Shown here: positions 17,921 through 31,257 of the stretch, one piece after another
Numbering within the stretch: the stretch's first letter is position 1
Layout of the letters: each line of letters opens with the position of its first letter
NCBI GenBank assembly: GCA_938038975.1
Contig: CALHVP010000182.1
Span: 1-34,909, forward strand
Source: an uncultured Maribacter sp.
GTDB lineage: Bacteria; Bacteroidota; Bacteroidia; Flavobacteriales; Flavobacteriaceae
Reading direction: 5' to 3'
DNA length: 34,909 nt
Translations under genes and position numbers: made by a program
Notes under the pieces: model-generated
What the model was told of the DNA's origin: nothing
Database searches by the model: none
The model's input: only the letters and a program-made list of their open reading frames with translations

Positions 17921-18055
17921 GATTTCTATTTTTAGTAAATAACCAGGGAACAAGCCCTAAATGCGTTTATAAATAGGAGGGGTAATAATAAAAACGTCCC
18001 CAAAAATATTTAATCCTCAATTATCAAGTAAAAATACATAATCCATTTTATGGCT

Positions 18056-18087
18056 TTTGATCCCACCTCAAAATTTTCTTACTTTAG
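18056..18087 (+). promoter_or_regulatory. Promoter of the restriction-modification pair
   Basis: TTTG at 18056-18059, a 20-base spacer, then TACTTTAG at 18080-18087. This fits the Bacteroidota consensus TTTG-N(17-23)-TAnnTTTG with one mismatch. Transcription would start close to the ATG at 18095, leaving almost no leader. The promoter overlaps a longer possible reading frame (from 18050), which argues that 18095 is the true start. Confidence 0.6.
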
Positions 18088-18094
18088 CACCTTA

Positions 18095-19321
18095 ATGAAG
18101 AAACTTAAGGTAATAGAACTTTTCGCCGGTGTAGGTGGTTTTCGATTGGGGCTGGAACAAGCTAAAAATTACAAGGTGGTTTGGAGCAACCAATGGGAGC
18201 CTAGTACAAAGATGCAGCACGCTTCTTTAGTTTACGAAGCGCGGTTTGGAGCAGAAAATCATAGTAATAAAAATATCTCCGAGGTCCTAACAGAACATAT
18301 TCCAGATGCTGATATAGTAGTGGGTGGGTTTCCTTGCCAAGATTATTCCGTAGCTACTACACTTCAAAATTCTAAGGGGTTAATTGGCAAAAAGGGTGTG
18401 CTATGGTGGACTATTCACCGCATACTTACAGAAAAAACAAACCCTCCAAAATACCTCTTTTTAGAAAACGTAGACAGACTCCTAAAATCACCCTCCAACC
18501 AACGTGGACGAGACTTTGCTGTTATGTTAAAAAGCTTAGGTGATTTAGGGTATGCTGTTGAATGGCGCGTAATTAATGCTGCTGATTATGGAATGCCTCA
18601 AAGACGTAGGCGTGTGTTTTTTATTGGATATCATAAATCAACTTCAGCATACAAGCAATTACAAAAAACCGATGGTTCTGATTGGATACATAGCGAAGGA
18701 ACAATGCCAAATGCATTTCCTATAGCAACCATTTCTGAAAAAAGAAATTCGTTTTCCATAACAGATGATCTTGTTCAACTTTCGGAAACCTTTAATGCCG
18801 GGCAAAAACTTTCCCCATTTCAAAATAGTGGAGTTTTTATAAACGGCACCGTTGTTACAGAAAAAACTACAGCGGCTTATGATGGTCCGCGCACCATACT
18901 TGGTGATATTGTAGATAAGAAAACTGTCTCAAAAGAATTCTATATTTCTCCAGATGATTATGCAAAATGGGATTATTTAAAAGGTGCTAAAAAAGAGGTC
19001 CGGACAGCAAAAACAGGATTTAATTACAACTATAGCGAAGGGGGAATGGTTTTCCCAGACGCATTAGATAATGCCTCTAGAACAATTATTACAGGAGAAG
19101 GGGGCAAAAGCGCCTCTAGATTTAAACATGTAGTGCAAACCACAAAAGGCTTACGAAGGCTTACACCGATAGAATTAGAACGTCTGAACATGTTTCCAGA
19201 AAACCACACTCAATTAGAAGGAATAACCGATACTAAACGCGCCTTTTTTATGGGTAATGCACTAGTTGTAGGTGTTGTTGAAAAGATTGGAAAAACGCTC
19301 TATAAAAAAATTAACCCTTAA
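18095..19321 (+). CDS. DNA (cytosine-5) methyltransferase, type II modification enzyme
   Basis: 408 residues from 18095. The C5-methyltransferase motifs appear in order: I (ELFAGVGGFRLGLE, 8-21), IV with the catalytic Cys81 (GGFPCQDYSVA), VI (ENVDRLLKSP, 124-133), VIII (PQRRRRVFFIGY, 168-179), and X near the C-terminus (FFMGNALVVGVVEKIG). The target-recognition region lies at about 190-330; the recognised sequence cannot be read from it. It methylates cytosine in DNA to protect against the partner nuclease. The next gene starts 4 bases after its stop. An upstream in-frame ATG at 18050 would add 15 residues but overlaps the promoter. Confidence 0.94.
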   Translation: MKKLKVIELFAGVGGFRLGLEQAKNYKVVWSNQWEPSTKMQHASLVYEARFGAENHSNKNISEVLTEHIPDADIVVGGFPCQDYSVATTLQNSKGLIGKKGVLWWTIHRILTEKTNPPKYLFLENVDRLLKSPSNQRGRDFAVMLKSLGDLGYAVEWRVINAADYGMPQRRRRVFFIGYHKSTSAYKQLQKTDGSDWIHSEGTMPNAFPIATISEKRNSFSITDDLVQLSETFNAGQKLSPFQNSGVFINGTVVTEKTTAAYDGPRTILGDIVDKKTVSKEFYISPDDYAKWDYLKGAKKEVRTAKTGFNYNYSEGGMVFPDALDNASRTIITGEGGKSASRFKHVVQTTKGLRRLTPIELERLNMFPENHTQLEGITDTKRAFFMGNALVVGVVEKIGKTLYKKINP

Positions 19322-19325
19322 TTAA

Positions 19326-19940
19326 TTGACCCTAGAAAGTAATTTTAACGGTGATTTAAAAAGGGAACAACAACTTGCCCCCCTTATAGACAACTATTAT
19401 TCTACTTGTTTAAATCAGTATACTTTTATAAGGGTTCATGATAGAAAAAATCAATTCGCTGGAATAGATGTCGTTTTTGAACACAAAACAAATGGCAGTA
19501 GTTATGCTGTAGATGAAAAAGCACAGTTGGATTATATTAACGAAGACCTACCAACTTTCGCGTTTGAAATCTCTTATAAAAAAGGGGGTGTCTTCAAAAA
19601 GGGCTGGCTTTTTGACGCTGCTAAAAAAACAGATTTTTACTCCCTTATTACAGCTATATATACTGATGAACCAAATATATTTACCAGTTGTAAGATAACC
19701 TTGGTAAACAGGTTAAAACTATTGGCTTTTCTTGATGATAGAAAAGTGACTACAGAAAGACTAAAAACCTATGTAAAAAATAGTAATATTATTCATGGTA
19801 AATTAAAGCTAAAGGAATTGAACGATAGAACAGAGGGCTACTTATACGTTTCTAGCAGAAATAAAGCTGAACAACCTATAAACCTAATTCTTCGTTTAGA
19901 TTTTCTACTTCAAAACGGGCTTGCTAAGCGTCTGGTTTAA
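19326..19940 (+). CDS. Putative type II restriction endonuclease (PD-(D/E)xK-like)
   Basis: A 204-residue protein starting at TTG, the first possible start after the methyltransferase stop. The segment FAGIDVVFEHK...YAVDEKAQLDY provides Asp48 and Asp63-Glu64-Lys65, with the spacing and hydrophobic context of a PD-(D/E)xK nuclease core; Glu24-like acidic residues upstream may contribute. I do not recognise a named enzyme, so the call rests on this motif and on the 4-base linkage to the methyltransferase. No controller (C) protein gene is seen. Recognition sequence unknown. Confidence 0.65.
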   Translation: MTLESNFNGDLKREQQLAPLIDNYYSTCLNQYTFIRVHDRKNQFAGIDVVFEHKTNGSSYAVDEKAQLDYINEDLPTFAFEISYKKGGVFKKGWLFDAAKKTDFYSLITAIYTDEPNIFTSCKITLVNRLKLLAFLDDRKVTTERLKTYVKNSNIIHGKLKLKELNDRTEGYLYVSSRNKAEQPINLILRLDFLLQNGLAKRLV

Positions 19941-20227
19941 GTAAAATTTTAAACTAACTAGTCTGTTTCTTTCTCAAAAAATGTCTTTTTACACATATTT
20001 AATTCCGATTATGGAGTTGATTAACCGTTCATCTGAAATTTACTTGTTCTACTTTGAAACGCTATTTATTAAAACCGACTCAACCGTTTATTTTAGGTTT
20101 TTAACTCGACTTAAATTTAAATCTGCCCCTGTAAGAGATAGCCCAGCAGAAGCTTGTACTGGGTTAAGGTGCTGTTAATCAACACTAAATATTTGCTTTT
20201 AATAAAAATAACACTATCTTATTAGCT

Positions 20228-20605
20228 ATGGTACAAGTAGATAAAACAGAAAATATAGCGTTTTTAGAAAAATCAATTCATCATTTAGAAGCCACTGGAT
20301 TCGAAAATATCAAAGCTGATATGGAGGGTTATGAGACTCCTAAATCCTATACAAGAAAGGATGCGGACATAAGAATTACTCCCGATATCGTGGCTATGAA
20401 AAATGGTAGAAAATACTTCTTCGATATTAGTTTAAAGTCAGAAAAACCAAGTTTGTTAAAATCAAAATGGTTATTCCTGGATACCTTAAGTAGAATGAAA
20501 TCTAATCGTTTTCGCATTATTACAACCAGAGGACATTATAAGTTTACAGATTCTATGTTAGAAGATATTAATTTAAGTAATAAAACACCTATTCGTATTG
20601 AATAG
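20228..20605 (+). CDS. Conserved hypothetical protein, nuclease-like fold possible
   Basis: A 125-residue soluble protein without signal peptide or membrane segment. The core ITPDIVAMKNGRKYFFDISLK places Asp53 before two beta-strands with Asp66 and Lys70; this looks like a PD-(D/E)xK-type core, but the D-x-x-x-K spacing is not canonical, so activity is uncertain. The sequence resembles small hypothetical proteins I associate with Flavobacteriaceae housekeeping regions, so a link to the restriction-modification pair 290 bases upstream is not implied. It converges with elaA across a strong terminator. Confidence 0.7.
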   Translation: MVQVDKTENIAFLEKSIHHLEATGFENIKADMEGYETPKSYTRKDADIRITPDIVAMKNGRKYFFDISLKSEKPSLLKSKWLFLDTLSRMKSNRFRIITTRGHYKFTDSMLEDINLSNKTPIRIE

Positions 20606-22464: not shown

Positions 22465-22896
22465 CTATTGACAAGGAATTTTTTCTACTCTACGCTCATG
22501 TCTTCCTCCTTCAAAATCTGTATTTAAAAAGGTTTGTACCATTTCTAATGCTTGTGGTAAGGAAATAAACCTAGCTGGTAAACTAATAATATTAGCATCA
22601 TTATGAGCTCTTGCTAATGCTACAATTTCTTTGGTCCAGCAAAGTGCAGCACGAACTTTTTGATGTTTGTTAACCGTCATAGAAGCACCATTACCACTTC
22701 CGCAAATAATAATACCATAATCTACCGTACCTTCTTCTACATCCTTAGCAACTGGATGCACAAAATCTGGATAATCAACACTATCTGAACCATCTGTACC
22801 ATAATTAACTATTTCAATATTCATAGACTTTAATAGACCTACAATGGCTAATTTGTATTCTGTACCTGCATGATCATTACCAATAGCTATTTTCAT
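22465..22896 (-). CDS. rpiB: Ribose-5-phosphate isomerase B
   Basis: 143 residues from the ATG at 22896, chosen because MKIAIGNDHAGTEYK is the conserved start of the family; an 11-residue upstream extension to 22929 is unlikely. The active-site Cys lies in GIIICGSGNGAS, and NKHQKVRAALCW and ARAHNDANIISLPAR are characteristic. It interconverts ribose-5-phosphate and ribulose-5-phosphate in the pentose phosphate pathway. It is the first gene of the rpiB - fur - CDF - elaA operon and faces away from rnr across a 614-base AT-rich gap. Confidence 0.94.
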   Translation of the reverse strand: MKIAIGNDHAGTEYKLAIVGLLKSMNIEIVNYGTDGSDSVDYPDFVHPVAKDVEEGTVDYGIIICGSGNGASMTVNKHQKVRAALCWTKEIVALARAHNDANIISLPARFISLPQALEMVQTFLNTDFEGGRHERRVEKIPCQ

Positions 22897-23510
22897 ATTG
22901 TAATATTTACTTTGTATAATATGTAACAAATGTACGATATGAACTAGTTCACCACAAGAAAAGGCTATTTCACAACAATATTTTAAATGGTAGCTTTTTT
23001 AGTTGTTCATTAGTTGATTAAATAATAGGTTAACTCTGTTTATAACTGTTGATAAGTATAGTATTTAAAATTAGTTCTTTCCACCGCTACGCTGCTTACA
23101 TACTTATTACTTAAATAAAGAATATTTATATAAGAACTAGTCATGTACTTTTTAAGAATATTCTTTAGCTAGTGAATATAAATTTTAAATAAACTTATTA
23201 AAATTTACCTGTTAGTATAGGTTATTAACCACTACTAATAACTAGCCCATATTCCTGATTATCAAACTACAAATTAAGTTTTATACTGTGAACAAGTTTT
23301 GTTATTTAATATAATCAAGTAATCCCATAATAAGTTATAACGGTTATTAACAAGCTATAATAACCATCATTATTTAATTTAAAATTTAAAAAAAATAGAA
23401 AAATATGTTATTACTGTTAATAAGCTTCATTAAATTATAAAGTAAGCTTAAAATAGGACAACAATCGTAGTGGAATATAATTCGTAATTTTCCAACAAAT
23501 AGAAATTTTA
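22897..23510. other. AT-rich gene-free region, candidate chromosomal replication origin (oriC)
   Basis: A 614-base stretch between divergent rpiB and rnr with no plausible gene and very high A+T. It contains DnaA-box-like 9-mers: TTATCAACA (minus, 23047-23055), TTATTAACC (plus, 23222-23230), TTATTAACA (plus, 23344-23352) and TTATTAACA (minus, 23415-23423). A weaker TTGTTCACA lies on minus at 23287-23295. The stretch 23380-23410 is almost pure A/T, as in a DNA-unwinding element. Two parS-type sites lie 5.4 and 7.3 kb to the right. It must also hold promoters for rpiB and rnr. dnaA itself is not in the window, so the origin call is an inference. Confidence 0.45.
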
Positions 23511-25694
23511 ATGTCGAAGAGAAATAAGAAGGCGAGAAACCATAAAACAAACGAAATTACCAAGGGTATTTTTACGGTTCTAGAACAAGAGCCAAACAAA
23601 AGTTTTAATTACAAACAAATTGCAGCAAAGACTGGTATTACAGATGCTCAAGATAGAAATACACTCATCAAAAGATTAGTGCAATTAAAAGAAAAAAAAC
23701 GTATTAAAGAAGTAGATAGAGGTACTTATCAAGTATTAGAAGATACAAAAACCTACCATGAAGGAAGGGTTGATATTACAGGAAGAGGTAACGCTTATAT
23801 TATAATAGAAGGAATGGAAGAAGATGTCTTTGTTCCTAATAATAAAATAAATAAAGCATTCCATAAAGATATTGTTGAGGTGTTTATTTACCCTAGTAAA
23901 AAGGGTAAGAAATTAGAGGGAGAAGTTCATAAAATTATAGAGCGAAATAAAACCACTTTTGTTGGTATTGTGGATATGCAGAAGACATTTGCTTTTGTAA
24001 GGCCAACAGACTTTAGAATGTACACAGATATATTTGTTTCTAACGATAAACTTTCTGGCGCAGCTAATGGTGATAAAGTTATTGTAGAAATGACAGATTG
24101 GCCAAATGATGTAGGTTCTCCTTTTGGTAAGGTAACTGAAGTTTTAGGTAAGCCTGGAGAACATAATACAGAAATACATTCCATTTTAGCAGAGTATGGA
24201 CTTCCATATGAATTTCCTGTAGAAGTAGAACGGTTTGCAGATGAATTAGATACAAGTATTAAAGAGGAGGAGATTAAAAAGAGAAGGGATATGCGAGACG
24301 TATTAACCTTTACTATTGATCCTAAAGATGCTAAAGATTTTGATGATGCTCTTTCTTTTCAAATACTCCCTAATGAAAACTATGAAATAGGAATTCATAT
24401 AGCTGATGTTTCTCATTATCTTAAAGAAGATACGGTCTTGGATGATGAGGCATATGAGAGAGCAACTTCAGTCTATTTAGTAGATCGTGTTGTTCCTATG
24501 TTACCAGAAGTACTATCTAATAATGCATGTTCGTTAAGACCTAACGAAGAAAAGTATACATTTTCTGCAATTTTTGAATTAGATAAGAAATCTAATATCG
24601 TTGACCAATGGTACGGTAGAACAGTTATAAATTCAAATGAACGTTTTGCTTATGAAGAAGCACAACACATTATAGAAACTAGTACAGGTGATATTCCGGC
24701 AGATATTAGTATACGTGGTAATGCATATAAAGTAGATGATAACGTTGTAGAGGCAACGCTTATCATGGATAAATTAGCGAAAATAATGCGTGGTAAGCGT
24801 ATGGAGCAGGGTGCATTATCTTTTGATAAAGTTGAAGTTAGATTTAATTTAAATGAAAATAGCGAACCAGTTAGTGTCTATTTTAAAGAAGGAAAGGATG
24901 CTAATAAACTTATAGAAGAGTTTATGTTGTTAGCAAACAGAAAAGTTGCTGAGTTCATTGGAAAACAAAAAAAAACCTTTATTTATCGTATTCATGATGA
25001 TCCAAATGAGGATAAGCTAATTGCTTTAAATGGAATTGTATCCCGTTTTGGTCATAAACTAGATTTTAAAGATAAAAAATCTATAAGTGCTTCTTTAAAT
25101 AAATTATTAGCCGATGTAAAGGGTAAAAAGGAACAAAACCTAGTTGATACTTTAGCTATTAGAAGTATGAGTAAGGCAATATATACTGTAAATAATATTG
25201 GACACTATGGTCTAGCGTTTGATTATTATAGTCATTTTACTTCTCCAATACGTAGATACCCAGATGTTATGGTACATCGTCTATTACAACATTACTTAGA
25301 TGGTGGTAAAAGTGTAAAAGAGGAAGTTTATGAGCAGAAGTGTAAACATTCCTCTGATATGGAATATTTAGCCTCTAGTGCAGAACGTGATTCTATTAAG
25401 TATATGCAAATTAAATTCATGCAAGATAATGAAGATAAAGAATTTGTAGGTGTTATAAGTGGAGTTACAGAATGGGGAGTATATGTGGAAATTATAGAAA
25501 ATAAATGTGAAGGTATGGTACGTATTAGTGACATCAAAGGAGATTATTATACCTTTGATGCAAGTGAATATGCTATCACAGGTGAACGCACGAAGAAAAC
25601 ATATCAGCTAGGTGACGAGGTTATTGTAATGGTTAAAAACACAGATTTAGTAAAGCGCCATTTAGACTTTGCTTTGCTAGGTAAAAACGAATAG
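23511..25694 (+). CDS. rnr: Ribonuclease R
   Basis: A 727-residue 3'-5' exoribonuclease of the RNase II/RNB family. Order of domains: an N-terminal winged-helix-like region (about 15-75), cold-shock OB domains (about 80-225), the RNB catalytic domain (about 255-590) with the metal-binding motif TIDPKDAKDFDDALSF, and a C-terminal S1 domain (about 640-725, EFVGVISGVTEWGVYVEI). Slightly shorter than the E. coli enzyme, mainly because it lacks a long basic tail. It degrades structured RNA and takes part in RNA quality control. Upstream lies the candidate origin region. Confidence 0.95.
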   Translation: MSKRNKKARNHKTNEITKGIFTVLEQEPNKSFNYKQIAAKTGITDAQDRNTLIKRLVQLKEKKRIKEVDRGTYQVLEDTKTYHEGRVDITGRGNAYIIIEGMEEDVFVPNNKINKAFHKDIVEVFIYPSKKGKKLEGEVHKIIERNKTTFVGIVDMQKTFAFVRPTDFRMYTDIFVSNDKLSGAANGDKVIVEMTDWPNDVGSPFGKVTEVLGKPGEHNTEIHSILAEYGLPYEFPVEVERFADELDTSIKEEEIKKRRDMRDVLTFTIDPKDAKDFDDALSFQILPNENYEIGIHIADVSHYLKEDTVLDDEAYERATSVYLVDRVVPMLPEVLSNNACSLRPNEEKYTFSAIFELDKKSNIVDQWYGRTVINSNERFAYEEAQHIIETSTGDIPADISIRGNAYKVDDNVVEATLIMDKLAKIMRGKRMEQGALSFDKVEVRFNLNENSEPVSVYFKEGKDANKLIEEFMLLANRKVAEFIGKQKKTFIYRIHDDPNEDKLIALNGIVSRFGHKLDFKDKKSISASLNKLLADVKGKKEQNLVDTLAIRSMSKAIYTVNNIGHYGLAFDYYSHFTSPIRRYPDVMVHRLLQHYLDGGKSVKEEVYEQKCKHSSDMEYLASSAERDSIKYMQIKFMQDNEDKEFVGVISGVTEWGVYVEIIENKCEGMVRISDIKGDYYTFDASEYAITGERTKKTYQLGDEVIVMVKNTDLVKRHLDFALLGKNE

Positions 25695-27792: not shown

Positions 27793-28038
27793 ATTTATGT
27801 TAGGGTACATTATGGGACCGTTGTACTAAAAAACACAAAGTATAGAGGATATCTATCTCGTTTGCGTGAAACATTGATTTTTCTTATTAAAAATAAGCCC
27901 CATAAAATGAGTTTAAAGCGTTTTATTGATACTTATAACAACTATTATGACTCAAGGCGCTTAGTTAGCTTAGATGTGCTTAGAACAGGATTTAGCCTTT
28001 TCTTAGTATATAAATATGTGATGAATATTCTTTGGTGA
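27793..28038 (+). pseudogene. Protein-like open frame, possible small gene or C-terminal gene fragment
   Basis: A plus-strand frame open from 27793 to TGA at 28036-28038 encodes about 81 residues of protein-like sequence, including YLSRLRETLIFLIKNKP, SLKRFIDTYNNYYDSRR and LDVLRTGFSLFLVYKYVMN. The first ATG is at 27907 and would give only 43 residues; TTG codons further upstream are possible starts. The last 47 bases overlap the end of the methyltransferase gene on the opposite strand. I do not recognise a family. It could be an unannotated small gene or the surviving end of a truncated one; chance is also possible. Confidence 0.35.
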
Positions 28039-28819
28039 ACATTCCTTTAATATTTGAGGTTAAACCGGTAAGAAAAGCAGAAACATATTTATTTTTACCG
28101 TGTTTGTACTTTTCTGATAAGATGGATACGTAGAAGGAATCAAACCACATAGGTTTTGTTTTTTCTAAAGTATAACCATAAGGATGGAACAGTTGGTTTA
28201 TGGATTGTTTTGAAAAATGCCAAAAATGTCTAGGCACATCATAAGCAGCCCAATAGCTTTTATATTTTTTGGCGTCGTAAGATTTAAAGTTTGGCACAGC
28301 TATTATAAGCACACCATCTTCTTTTAAAAGCTTAGTGATATCTCTAATTTGTTCGTTAAGATTTGGCAAATGTTCTAATACATGCCATAAGGTGATGACA
28401 TCGTACGAGTGATTTGAAAGTTCGGATAATGATTCATGTAAGAGTATTCCCTTTTGTTCAGAATTGGTTCTAGCAATTTTATTAGGCTCTACACCATCTA
28501 TCTTCCAGGTTTGTTTTTTAGCTGTTAGTAAAAATTCTCCAGTTCCCGCACCAATGTCTAGAAGTGTTCCTTTGTTTTTAACTAGTGAGTTTATTAATCT
28601 AACTTTTTTGGACACACTATATCGCTTGACGAGAAGATATATCTTATCAATAAAGGAAGCTGATTGGTCGGAATGGGATATGTAAGATTCGCTTTGATAA
28701 TACTGTTCTGGTTCTTTAGGTTGAGGATGCGTTAAAAGCATGTCAAGGTCGTTATCGTATAGTAAACTAAACTCTTCTTGTGAATAGAAATGATCTATAA
28801 GTGTTAGGTATGCTTTCAT
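27992..28819 (-). CDS. Class I SAM-dependent methyltransferase
   Basis: A 275-residue cytoplasmic enzyme of the Methyltransf_23/UbiG-like type. Motif I is LLDIGAGTGEFL (86-97), followed by an acidic turn in DGVEPN, motif LWHVLEHLPN and post-motif PNFKSYDAKKYKSYWAAYDVPRHFWHFS, which is typical of Bacteroidota family members. The N-terminal about 80 residues lack the zinc-finger cysteines some relatives carry. Substrate unknown. It is 144 bases downstream of mnmG, with a parS site in the gap, so it may be transcribed separately. Confidence 0.87.
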   Translation of the reverse strand: MKAYLTLIDHFYSQEEFSLLYDNDLDMLLTHPQPKEPEQYYQSESYISHSDQSASFIDKIYLLVKRYSVSKKVRLINSLVKNKGTLLDIGAGTGEFLLTAKKQTWKIDGVEPNKIARTNSEQKGILLHESLSELSNHSYDVITLWHVLEHLPNLNEQIRDITKLLKEDGVLIIAVPNFKSYDAKKYKSYWAAYDVPRHFWHFSKQSINQLFHPYGYTLEKTKPMWFDSFYVSILSEKYKHGKNKYVSAFLTGLTSNIKGMFTKEYSSHIYILRKG

Positions 28820-28941
28820 AGGATTAATGACGAATACAAGGAATTATGATGTCTATTGTTTGCTTGTGGCAGACTTCTTTATTTTAAACTAAGCTTTTAG
28901 TTATAAGCATTGGTATTAGTTTAACACTTAAAATAACATAT

Positions 28942-28957
28942 TGTTCCACGTGGAACA
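28942..28957. promoter_or_regulatory. parS: parS-type chromosome segregation site 1
   Basis: Perfect 16-bp palindrome TGTTCCACGTGGAACA, the consensus ParB-binding parS form known from many bacterial chromosomes. The dyad symmetry continues outward, making a 24-bp perfect palindrome at 28938-28961. It lies in the gap just downstream of the mnmG stop codon. Confidence 0.85.
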
Positions 28958-28963
28958 ATATAA

Positions 28964-30832
28964 TTACCTACCCATAAAAACGAGTAATACACTTATGTCG
29001 CTTGGTGTAACTCCGCTTATTCTTGATGCTTGGGAAATAGTCACGGGTTGTATTGCGGTTAGTTTTTCACGAGCCTCATAGGATAAAGATTTTAGTTTGT
29101 AGTAATCAAAATCGCTTGGTATTTTTACAGACTCCAGTCTGTGAATTTTGTCAGCATTTACTCTTTCCTTTGCAATGTAACCGGAGTATTTAACCTGTAC
29201 CTCTGTTTGTTCGAGCACTTCGTTATCTAGATTTTGTTCGCTAACAAACGCAGAAACCGGCTCTAGTTCTAGCATATCTTGCATGGTTACTTTTGGTCTA
29301 GAAAACGCTTTAAACATTTTATCTGATTGCTTAACCGGAGCTGAACCAACACGTTCTAAAATTGGATTTATGTCTTCAGGCAAAACACTAGTCTCTTTAA
29401 AAAACTTAATAAACTTATTAGAGTTAGATAGTTTTTGTTCCATTCGCTTTAATCGAGTGTCATCTGCAAGACCAATTTTATGACCCATAGGTGTTAATCG
29501 TAAATCGGCATTATCTTGGCGCAATAAGGTTCTATATTCAGCTCTGGAAGTAAACATACGATATGGTTCTTCCGTTCCCTTTGTTATAAGATCATCAATG
29601 AGGACACCTATATAGGCTTCATCTCTTTTAAGTATGAATGGTTCTTCTTCAGCCGATTTTAGGTGTGCGTTTATTCCAGCCATTAATCCTTGAGACGCTG
29701 CTTCTTCGTATCCAGTTGTTCCATTTATTTGTCCTGCGAAATAAAGATTCTCAACCAATTTAGTTTCTAAAGTGTGCTTTAATTGTGTAGGTGGAAAGTA
29801 GTCATATTCTATAGCGTATCCCGGCCTAAAGAACTTTACGGCTTCAAACCCAACAACAGATCTTAGCGCTTTGAATTGTACATCCTCAGGCAAGGACGTA
29901 GAAAAACCATTAACATATACCTCAACGGTATTCCATCCTTCAGGCTCTATAAACATTTGGTGACTGTCTTTGTCTGCAAAACGATTTATTTTATCTTCTA
30001 TGGATGGGCAGTATCGTGGTCCAATACTTTGTATTCTGCCGTTAAACATTGGAGACCTGTCAAAGCCTTCTCGTAGCAAATCATGTACTAATGCGCTGGT
30101 GTGCGTCATATGACAATCGCGTTGGACGTCTAATGGTTTCGTATTGGTGTATGAAAATTTTTCAGGAACCGCGTCACCAGGTTGTACTAGCATTTTTGAA
30201 TAATCTAATGATCTGCCGTCTACCCTTGGAGGAGTTCCGGTTTTCATTCTGCCGCTTTCAAAACCTAAACCTACAAGCTGTTCTGTTATTCCTGTGGCCG
30301 CCTTCTCTCCTGCTCTGCCACCGCCAAATTGTTTTTCGCCAATATGGATGAGTCCGTTAAGAAAAGTTCCATTGGTAAGAACGACAGCTTTACTCTTTAT
30401 TTCTATTCCTAATGATGTACGAACACCCGTTACTTTTCCGTCTTCAACGACTAATCCAGAAACCATTTCTTGATAGAAATCAACATTTGGTGTTCGTTCT
30501 AAAGCCAGTCGCCACTCTTCTGCAAATCGCATACGATCGCTCTGTGCTCTTGGACTCCACATTGCAGGTCCCTTAGACTTATTAAGCATCTTAAATTGTA
30601 TTGCAGATAGATCGGTTATGATTCCGCTGTATCCTCCAAGCGCGTCAATTTCTCTTATGATCTGGCCTTTTGCTATTCCACCCATTGCTGGGTTGCAAGA
30701 CATTTGACCTATATTCTGCAGGTTCATTGTGACCAGTAAGGTTTTGGACCCCATATTGGCTGCTGCTGCTGCTGCCTCTGAACCCGCATGGCCTCCTCCT
30801 ACTACTATAACATCGTATTTTTCTCCGAACAT
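28964..30832 (-). CDS. mnmG: tRNA uridine-5-carboxymethylaminomethyl modification enzyme MnmG (GidA)
   Basis: A 622-residue FAD enzyme that, with MnmE, modifies U34 of certain tRNAs. The N-terminal FAD site is VIVVGGGHAGSEAA (8-21), followed by NPAMGGIAKGQ. The conserved GPRYCPSIEDKI segment and GQINGTTGYEEAA are intact, and the C-terminal helical domain ends with SGVTPSDISVLLVFMG. Full length for the family. It begins 5 bases after the end of ybeY and is flanked by two parS sites. gidA genes are frequently near oriC in bacteria. Confidence 0.96.
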   Translation of the reverse strand: MFGEKYDVIVVGGGHAGSEAAAAAANMGSKTLLVTMNLQNIGQMSCNPAMGGIAKGQIIREIDALGGYSGIITDLSAIQFKMLNKSKGPAMWSPRAQSDRMRFAEEWRLALERTPNVDFYQEMVSGLVVEDGKVTGVRTSLGIEIKSKAVVLTNGTFLNGLIHIGEKQFGGGRAGEKAATGITEQLVGLGFESGRMKTGTPPRVDGRSLDYSKMLVQPGDAVPEKFSYTNTKPLDVQRDCHMTHTSALVHDLLREGFDRSPMFNGRIQSIGPRYCPSIEDKINRFADKDSHQMFIEPEGWNTVEVYVNGFSTSLPEDVQFKALRSVVGFEAVKFFRPGYAIEYDYFPPTQLKHTLETKLVENLYFAGQINGTTGYEEAASQGLMAGINAHLKSAEEEPFILKRDEAYIGVLIDDLITKGTEEPYRMFTSRAEYRTLLRQDNADLRLTPMGHKIGLADDTRLKRMEQKLSNSNKFIKFFKETSVLPEDINPILERVGSAPVKQSDKMFKAFSRPKVTMQDMLELEPVSAFVSEQNLDNEVLEQTEVQVKYSGYIAKERVNADKIHRLESVKIPSDFDYYKLKSLSYEAREKLTAIQPVTISQASRISGVTPSDISVLLVFMGR

Positions 30833-30837
30833 ATCTT

Positions 30838-31257
30838 CTATTGTTCCACGTGGAACATTTTAATTTTCTCCTCTTCCTTCACTCTCATTTGAGCAGTGTG
30901 CTCTTCGCTTTTGTCTTTGTAACCCATTAAGTGGAGTACGCCGTGCGCCATAACTCGCAACAATTCATTTTCAAACGAAACAGCAAAGAGGCCTGCATTT
31001 TCTTTAACCCGCCCCACCGAAATGTAGATGTCTCCAGAAGCAACCTTACCTATGGTATAATCAAACGTAATGATGTCTGTATAATCATCATGTTGTAAAT
31101 AGGTTTGGTTAATCTTCAAAAGATAAGCATCATCGCAAAAAATATAATTTAACTCTCCTAAATTAAAACCATCTGATTCACACACAGCGCTAATCCATTC
31201 TTTATAGCTATCCTCATTTACTAACTTAAAACTTGCCTCGTAGTTGAAATTAATCAT
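30838..31257 (-). CDS. ybeY: Endoribonuclease YbeY, rRNA maturation factor
   Basis: 139 residues, a single-domain UPF0054 protein acting in 16S rRNA 3' processing and ribosome quality control. The zinc motif is AHGVLHLMGYKDKSEEH: His105 and His109 are present, but the usual third histidine (GYDH) is replaced by GYKD, with His120 further on. Its last codons (MFHVEQ-stop) are encoded by the parS site. Its ATG overlaps the end of the DUF4175 gene by 8 bases and mnmG follows after 5 bases, so the three form an operon. Confidence 0.93.
   Translation of the reverse strand: MINFNYEASFKLVNEDSYKEWISAVCESDGFNLGELNYIFCDDAYLLKINQTYLQHDDYTDIITFDYTIGKVASGDIYISVGRVKENAGLFAVSFENELLRVMAHGVLHLMGYKDKSEEHTAQMRVKEEEKIKMFHVEQ
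30842..30857. promoter_or_regulatory. parS: parS-type chromosome segregation site 2
   Basis: A second perfect TGTTCCACGTGGAACA, exactly 1900 bp from site 1. It lies inside the 3' end of ybeY and is read as part of the peptide MFHVEQ, just ahead of the mnmG start. A ParB bound here could affect transcription of mnmG, but this is not shown. Confidence 0.85.

Follow-up and report, generated by a model that had tools for sequence, protein, structure and literature searches.

Probable chromosomal parS sites bracket mnmG near a candidate replication origin in Flavobacteriaceae

The window analysed here, a whole stretch of 34,909 nucleotides from an uncultured Maribacter sp., carries the tRNA-modification gene mnmG (gidA) as an open reading frame on the reverse strand at 28964-30832 (TIGR00136, 840 bits). 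Among the best 80 of 587 named relatives, a set that may omit the records closest to the window, the closest MnmG is that of Maribacter litoralis, at 88%. On the upstream side of mnmG lies the open reading frame of ybeY, encoding an rRNA maturation RNase (30838-31257, reverse strand; TIGR00043, PF02130), and on the downstream side that of a methyltransferase gene (27992-28819, reverse strand; PF13489). Two further genes, at the edges of a candidate origin, served as markers: rpiB (22465-22929, reverse strand; PF02502), which was present in all 32 genomes searched, and rnr, encoding ribonuclease R (23511-25694, forward strand; TIGR02063, 726 bits). Elsewhere in the window, at 18050-20605, a 423-aa open reading frame resembling by eye a DNA cytosine methyltransferase is followed by frames of 204 aa and 125 aa, possibly forming a restriction-modification unit.

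Two copies of the 16-bp palindrome TGTTCCACGTGGAACA bracket mnmG, both exact (0 mismatches at either place), as the preliminary description of this DNA had reported. Site D (28942-28957) lies on the downstream side of mnmG, between this gene and the methyltransferase gene, and is contained in a perfect 24-bp palindrome, ATATTGTTCCACGTGGAACAATAT (28938-28961), whose outer bases are less conserved across relatives. Site U (30842-30857) lies upstream of mnmG and in frame within the last codons of ybeY, where ATG TTC CAC GTG GAA CAA TAG encodes MFHVEQ and the stop. Both the longer intergenic palindrome and the copy embedded in ybeY, each pointed out before, are read directly from the sequence. Both sites are 16-bp palindromes of the TGTTYCACGTGRAACA form, as is characteristic of chromosomal parS. 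They are the sole matches to TGTTCCACGTGGAACA in the window within 3 mismatches. In 100 dinucleotide shuffles of the window the mean was 0.07 matches and 2 matches were never reached (0/100), in agreement with the earlier view that a 16-bp palindrome twice in 2 kb is not expected by chance.

The preliminary description had also stressed the 1900 bp between the sites. This distance is exact in the window but reflects no constraint: the 146 loci with two sites, window included, span 1888 to 2386 bp, and a fixed spacing was accordingly rejected as a feature. The spacing is the length of mnmG plus variable margins.

In the source genome (3.29 Mb, 279 contigs, 85% complete) the two window sites are the sole exact copies of the 16-mer. 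The genome-wide search at up to 2 mismatches that had been proposed thus returned few exact copies, namely these two, together with 2 further places at 2 mismatches. A reversed control pattern likewise gives two, and because the numbers are equal the additional places are treated as chance.

The same genome encodes a single ParB (C214; TIGR00180, 170 bits) with ParB_N, HTH_ParB and ParB_C domains (PF02195, PF17762, PF23552). Its gene directly follows that of an AAA_31/ParA-type ATPase, so that ParA and ParB, both characteristic of chromosomal parS systems, occur together in this genome. The lack of a ParB homologue, named earlier as a possible objection, is not the case: a three-domain ParB stands beside ParA. 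The earlier expectation that parA, parB and more copies would be found nearby held in part, as the genes are in the genome but not near the sites, and no further exact copy was found in the 85% complete assembly. The letters LGRGL and GERR, which we take to be ParB motifs, are present in the protein. The protein aligns through its helix-turn-helix with ParB and Spo0J chains of solved structure (among them 6sdk, E 3.7e-46), and against the nucleoid-occlusion model TIGR04285 it scores 233 bits, under the model cut-off of 315. According to the available text of PMC7383237, R173 and G201 (Caulobacter numbering) are absolutely conserved among ParB proteins but differ in Noc. The Maribacter ParB has R and G at the equivalent places, which we located through alignments to Spo0J and other ParB chains, the Caulobacter chain itself not being shown aligned. 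It therefore bears the specificity residues that accompany chromosomal parS.

The sites are widely conserved in the family, taken to be Flavobacteriaceae because the mnmG of three loci is identical to that of named records, two of them titled Flavobacteriaceae and one Salinimicrobium catena. The exact 16-mer occurs in 102 of 149 family genomes, in 1-3 copies each, and the reversed control in none (0 in 149/149). For a comparison of the mnmG locus, 161 loci were assembled from the window, 80 stretches of family genomes and the best 80 of the 587 named relatives. The 80 family-genome stretches were drawn from 147 genomes with an mnmG match; 46 were picked for having no exact copies and 34 among copy carriers, so the sample is weighted towards genomes without the exact 16-mer. 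Removal of 3 duplicates left 158 loci, of which 154 have both flanks of at least 700 bp. Sites were called parS-like when they differed from either consensus by at most 2 mismatches, and were counted up to 600 bp from mnmG. Such a site was found upstream in 149/154 loci, downstream in 145/154, on both sides in 143/154 and on at least one side in 151/154. Eleven loci thus miss one or both flanking sites, with L068, L091 and L215 having neither within 600 bp. Beside mnmG the density of parS-like sites reached 1.85 per kb, about 190 times the 0.0097 per kb measured more than 1.6 kb away. The core GTTYCACGTGRAAC is almost constant in the sites selected with a limit of 2 mismatches, whilst position 5 varies between C and T and its partner between G and A. 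Three loci (L174 and L179, both Flavobacterium, and L067, from genome G102) have 6-12 parS-like sites arrayed upstream of mnmG, compared with the usual one or two.

Complete genomes were used to place the sites on the chromosome. The core GTTYCACGTGRAAC occurs 63 times in 29 of 30 complete relatives (1-4 each; control 0). All 63 cores lie within 57.4 kb of rpiB, where 3.4% would be expected under even placing in these 29 genomes. The copies are therefore few and clustered, as is typical of chromosomal parS, and the even spread round the genome that had been raised as a counter-indication is not seen. In the 29 genomes the distance between rpiB and the sites or mnmG ranges from 8 to 57 kb, with a median of 21 kb (28 are single-contig; for G018, with two contigs, the large one was measured, and the size of G124 is rounded). 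The distance from the sites to dnaA is 0.21-0.49 of the chromosome, and that to parB, unlike in the textbook layout, 0.17-0.47. Both genes stay remote from the parS locus in all 29 genomes. A further complete genome of one contig (G099, 2.74 Mb) has ParB and rpiB but lacks a parS core, and a search for mnmG gave no match at 1e-100.

We also sampled GC skew, in 20-kb stretches, in four of the genomes. In G044 the minimum falls at 2.77 Mb and the sites at 2.733-2.735 Mb, and in G011 the skew changes sign between 0.81 and 0.985 Mb, with the sites at 0.932-0.934 Mb. The sampled minimum lies about 0.17-0.4 Mb from the sites in G115 and about 0.1-0.25 Mb from them in the noisy series of G132. At none of the four skew minima was dnaA found. 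Two published genomes of the family point the same way. For Mariniflexile litorale, the available text of PMC11278836 gives an Ori-Finder prediction of oriC beside mnmG, in line with GC skew, although a figure legend of that paper contradicts its text by putting ter at mnmG. By the same method, again with GC-skew agreement, oriC is predicted at mnmG in Algorimicrobium bowmanii in the available text of PMC12843772. The earlier statement that parS sites cluster near oriC is thus borne out in the relatives, rather than in the draft genome itself, by skew (tight in two genomes, rough in two), by a box-rich gap described below and by these two predictions, as far as the available texts go. Since both published genomes are Flavobacteriaceae, an origin near mnmG is not new. 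For parS around mnmG in this family, we found no report in the open-access literature searched. A survey of parS was reportedly made by Livny and others in 2007.

The candidate oriC (22930-23510) is the AT-rich stretch separating rpiB from the divergent rnr. It lies 5.4 kb from the closer of the two parS sites and holds repeated TTATTAACA/TGTTAATAA boxes, and in the relatives rpiB lies near the skew minimum. The TTATTAACA box is two letters off the usual DnaA box. Of 18 cases (the window and the named loci reaching rpiB), 16 have its densest cluster on the upstream side of rpiB, at most 700 bp away, the exceptions being L220 and L225. The longest gap read borders on rpiB in 19 of the 22 genomes covered, and its box count was matched by at most 8/100 shuffles in those 19; in the remaining three (G148, G130 and G017) the gap picked does not adjoin rpiB. 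The top 8-mer over the 22 gaps is TATTAACA, present in 19/22 against 3.0 expected, a result to be read in the knowledge that the TTATTAACA motif was first noticed by eye in the window and that the 22 gaps include the window's own. When larger stretches of four genomes were sampled, the rpiB gap was densest in TTATTAACA boxes in G044 (7 vs next 4, 800 kb), G115 (7 vs 6, 400 kb) and G132 (10 vs 7, 400 kb), and tied in G011 (7 vs 7, 400 kb). The rpiB-rnr gap of the window is probably the replication origin, with DnaA predicted to bind there.

The canonical box, TTATCCACA, showed no consistent enrichment in rpiB gaps. It was also tried and rejected as an origin marker within 10 kb of mnmG, where the pooled peaks over 158 loci were modest, at most 0.69 per kb. 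Four such boxes within 500 bp occurred at 9/158 loci, eight of them downstream of mnmG by 2.5-4.5 kb and one, in a Flavobacterium, upstream. The downstream TTATCCACA-like clusters (L217-L220, L227, L229, L233 and L234) belong to Chryseobacterium, Kaistella, Algoriphagus and Roseivirga.

The closeness of the sites to mnmG raises the question of whether they serve mainly in the regulation of mnmG and ybeY, as operators for ParB or another DNA-binding protein, with segregation secondary. Of the 153 loci with a site upstream, 98 have the nearest one ending 5-16 bp short of the mnmG start codon, and a protein bound there could affect expression. Genomes in which sites and gene have parted argue against such a role. 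In G017 no site occurs up to 4 kb on either side of mnmG; the three core sites of the genome are 0.28 Mb away from the gene and have stayed close to rpiB, at 43-45 kb. Next to the one parS site read there is a homologue (L025:140-961) of the methyltransferase gene usually found after mnmG. In this genome the sites have kept to the origin region rather than to mnmG. Similarly, G097 has one extra site that is closer to rpiB (40 kb) than to mnmG (56 kb), and in two genomes of another family (G305 and G216, family f9) the listed site shares a contig with mnmG at a distance of 25-27 kb. We regard regulation as the main function of the sites as very unlikely.

A search across the phylum found the degenerate 16-mer in 144/198 genomes and the reversed control in 1/198 (G218). 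Site positions were listed for 41 of the 144, and in 34 of these, by hand comparison, a site lies at most 1 kb from mnmG; outside the family this was the case in 18 of 24 listed genomes. The seven exceptions are four genomes of family f5 (one with the site 118 kb off on the same contig, three with it on other contigs), the two f9 genomes and G171, where the site is on another contig. The association of parS with mnmG therefore reaches past the family and can be lost.

Less probable still is that the palindromes act as RNA hairpins, either terminators or mRNA processing sites of a ybeY-mnmG operon, and not as protein-binding DNA. Their position, as perfect palindromes right before the mnmG start and right after the mnmG stop, would suit such elements. 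Their variation does not: in 153 sites upstream of mnmG and 148 downstream of it, GTT, CACGTG and AAC are held at 99-100%, a result that picking by consensus similarity favours, and at the one freely variable pair the stem-breaking C/A combination is found in 73/343 core sites against the wobble T/G in 50. It is the frequency of these stem-breaking combinations that disfavours the hairpin. That site U is kept for the C-terminal peptide of YbeY (FHVEQ), with its parS likeness incidental, can be dismissed almost outright, for although 63/155 ybeY genes end in (M/L)FH(V/M)(E/K) and the frame is the same in 55/58 loci whose mnmG-nearest site falls inside ybeY, all 63 such tails are parS DNA (61 core, 2 CACATG variant) that uses one codon per residue except for Phe (CAC 63/63, GTG 61/61, GAA 50/50, AAA 13/13) where the same ybeY bodies use CAC for 113/287 His and GTG for 88/462 Val, and in 94/155 loci the mnmG-nearest site follows the ybeY stop. 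As related genomes are not independent, these tallies are counts and not probabilities.

Taken together, the comparative sequence evidence indicates, with a probability of about 0.92, that the two palindromes are chromosomal parS sites and form the centromere of this Flavobacteriaceae chromosome. From known ParABS systems, we infer ParB binding, clamp spreading and ParA-driven segregation; the exact place of the origin is likewise a prediction. The single ParB, encoded elsewhere beside ParA, would bind each 16-bp site as a dimer and, with CTP, close into a clamp. From the sites the clamp would slide onto the intervening and surrounding DNA, mnmG and ybeY included, and ParA would move the ParB-covered region such that newly copied origins part first. 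We further infer that the sites bracket mnmG because the mnmG locus stayed near the origin, the bracket reflecting this persistence and not a fixed spacing. A fuller picture, in which the whole Flavobacteriaceae centromere is the site pair at the housekeeping gene mnmG, the non-standard origin beside it is the rpiB-rnr gap with its TTATTAACA boxes, dnaA and parAB lie well away, segregation does without canonical SMC and ParB loaded between the sites may tune mnmG and ybeY in step with replication, is unlikely to hold in all its parts at once.

With the parS reading, Flavobacteriaceae would have a centromere defined at sequence level and an origin open to testing. The usual marker of the replication start is dnaA, and assemblies may begin there, as does that of Lutibacter profundi according to the available text of PMC5219744. 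Origin calls and coverage-based growth-rate estimates would be corrected, dnaA being 0.21-0.49 of the chromosome off. The sites would also offer a small, mostly two-site system for studying ParB action without canonical SMC.

In Bacillus subtilis, Spo0J and parS serve in SMC loading, whereas no canonical SMC was found in the 85% complete source genome, where SMC_prok_B had no match over its cut-off (best 18 bits vs 567). SMC loading, one half of the usual model, may therefore be absent here or be done by another protein. This agrees with the available text of PMC10197239, in which no known condensin was found in two gut Bacteroidetes, Bacteroides caecimuris and Muribaculum intestinale. B. subtilis resembles the present case in its homologous ParB (6sdk) and related site TGTTNCACGTGAAACA, but differs in having ten sites, eight of them in the origin domain, as given in the available text of PMC7022226. 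For the 12 gut bacterial genomes of PMC10197239, the available text places most parS at the origin and finds the origin not systematically with dnaA, both as in the genomes studied here. The word gidA is absent from that text, and it is the present analysis that describes the bracketing of mnmG in Flavobacteriaceae. The chromosomal ParABS of Pseudomonas aeruginosa and P. putida has the same 16-bp form, TGTTCCACGTGGAACA being listed in a table in the available text of PMC7022226. According to this source, the number of sites is also small in P. aeruginosa, where 4 of 9 fall in the origin domain. By contrast with Pseudomonas, the complete relatives have 1-4 core sites, mostly two round mnmG, with parB and dnaA far away. 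The sites are most probably ordinary chromosomal parS, unusually arranged: the two stand close together on either side of mnmG, and dnaA and parAB are remote.
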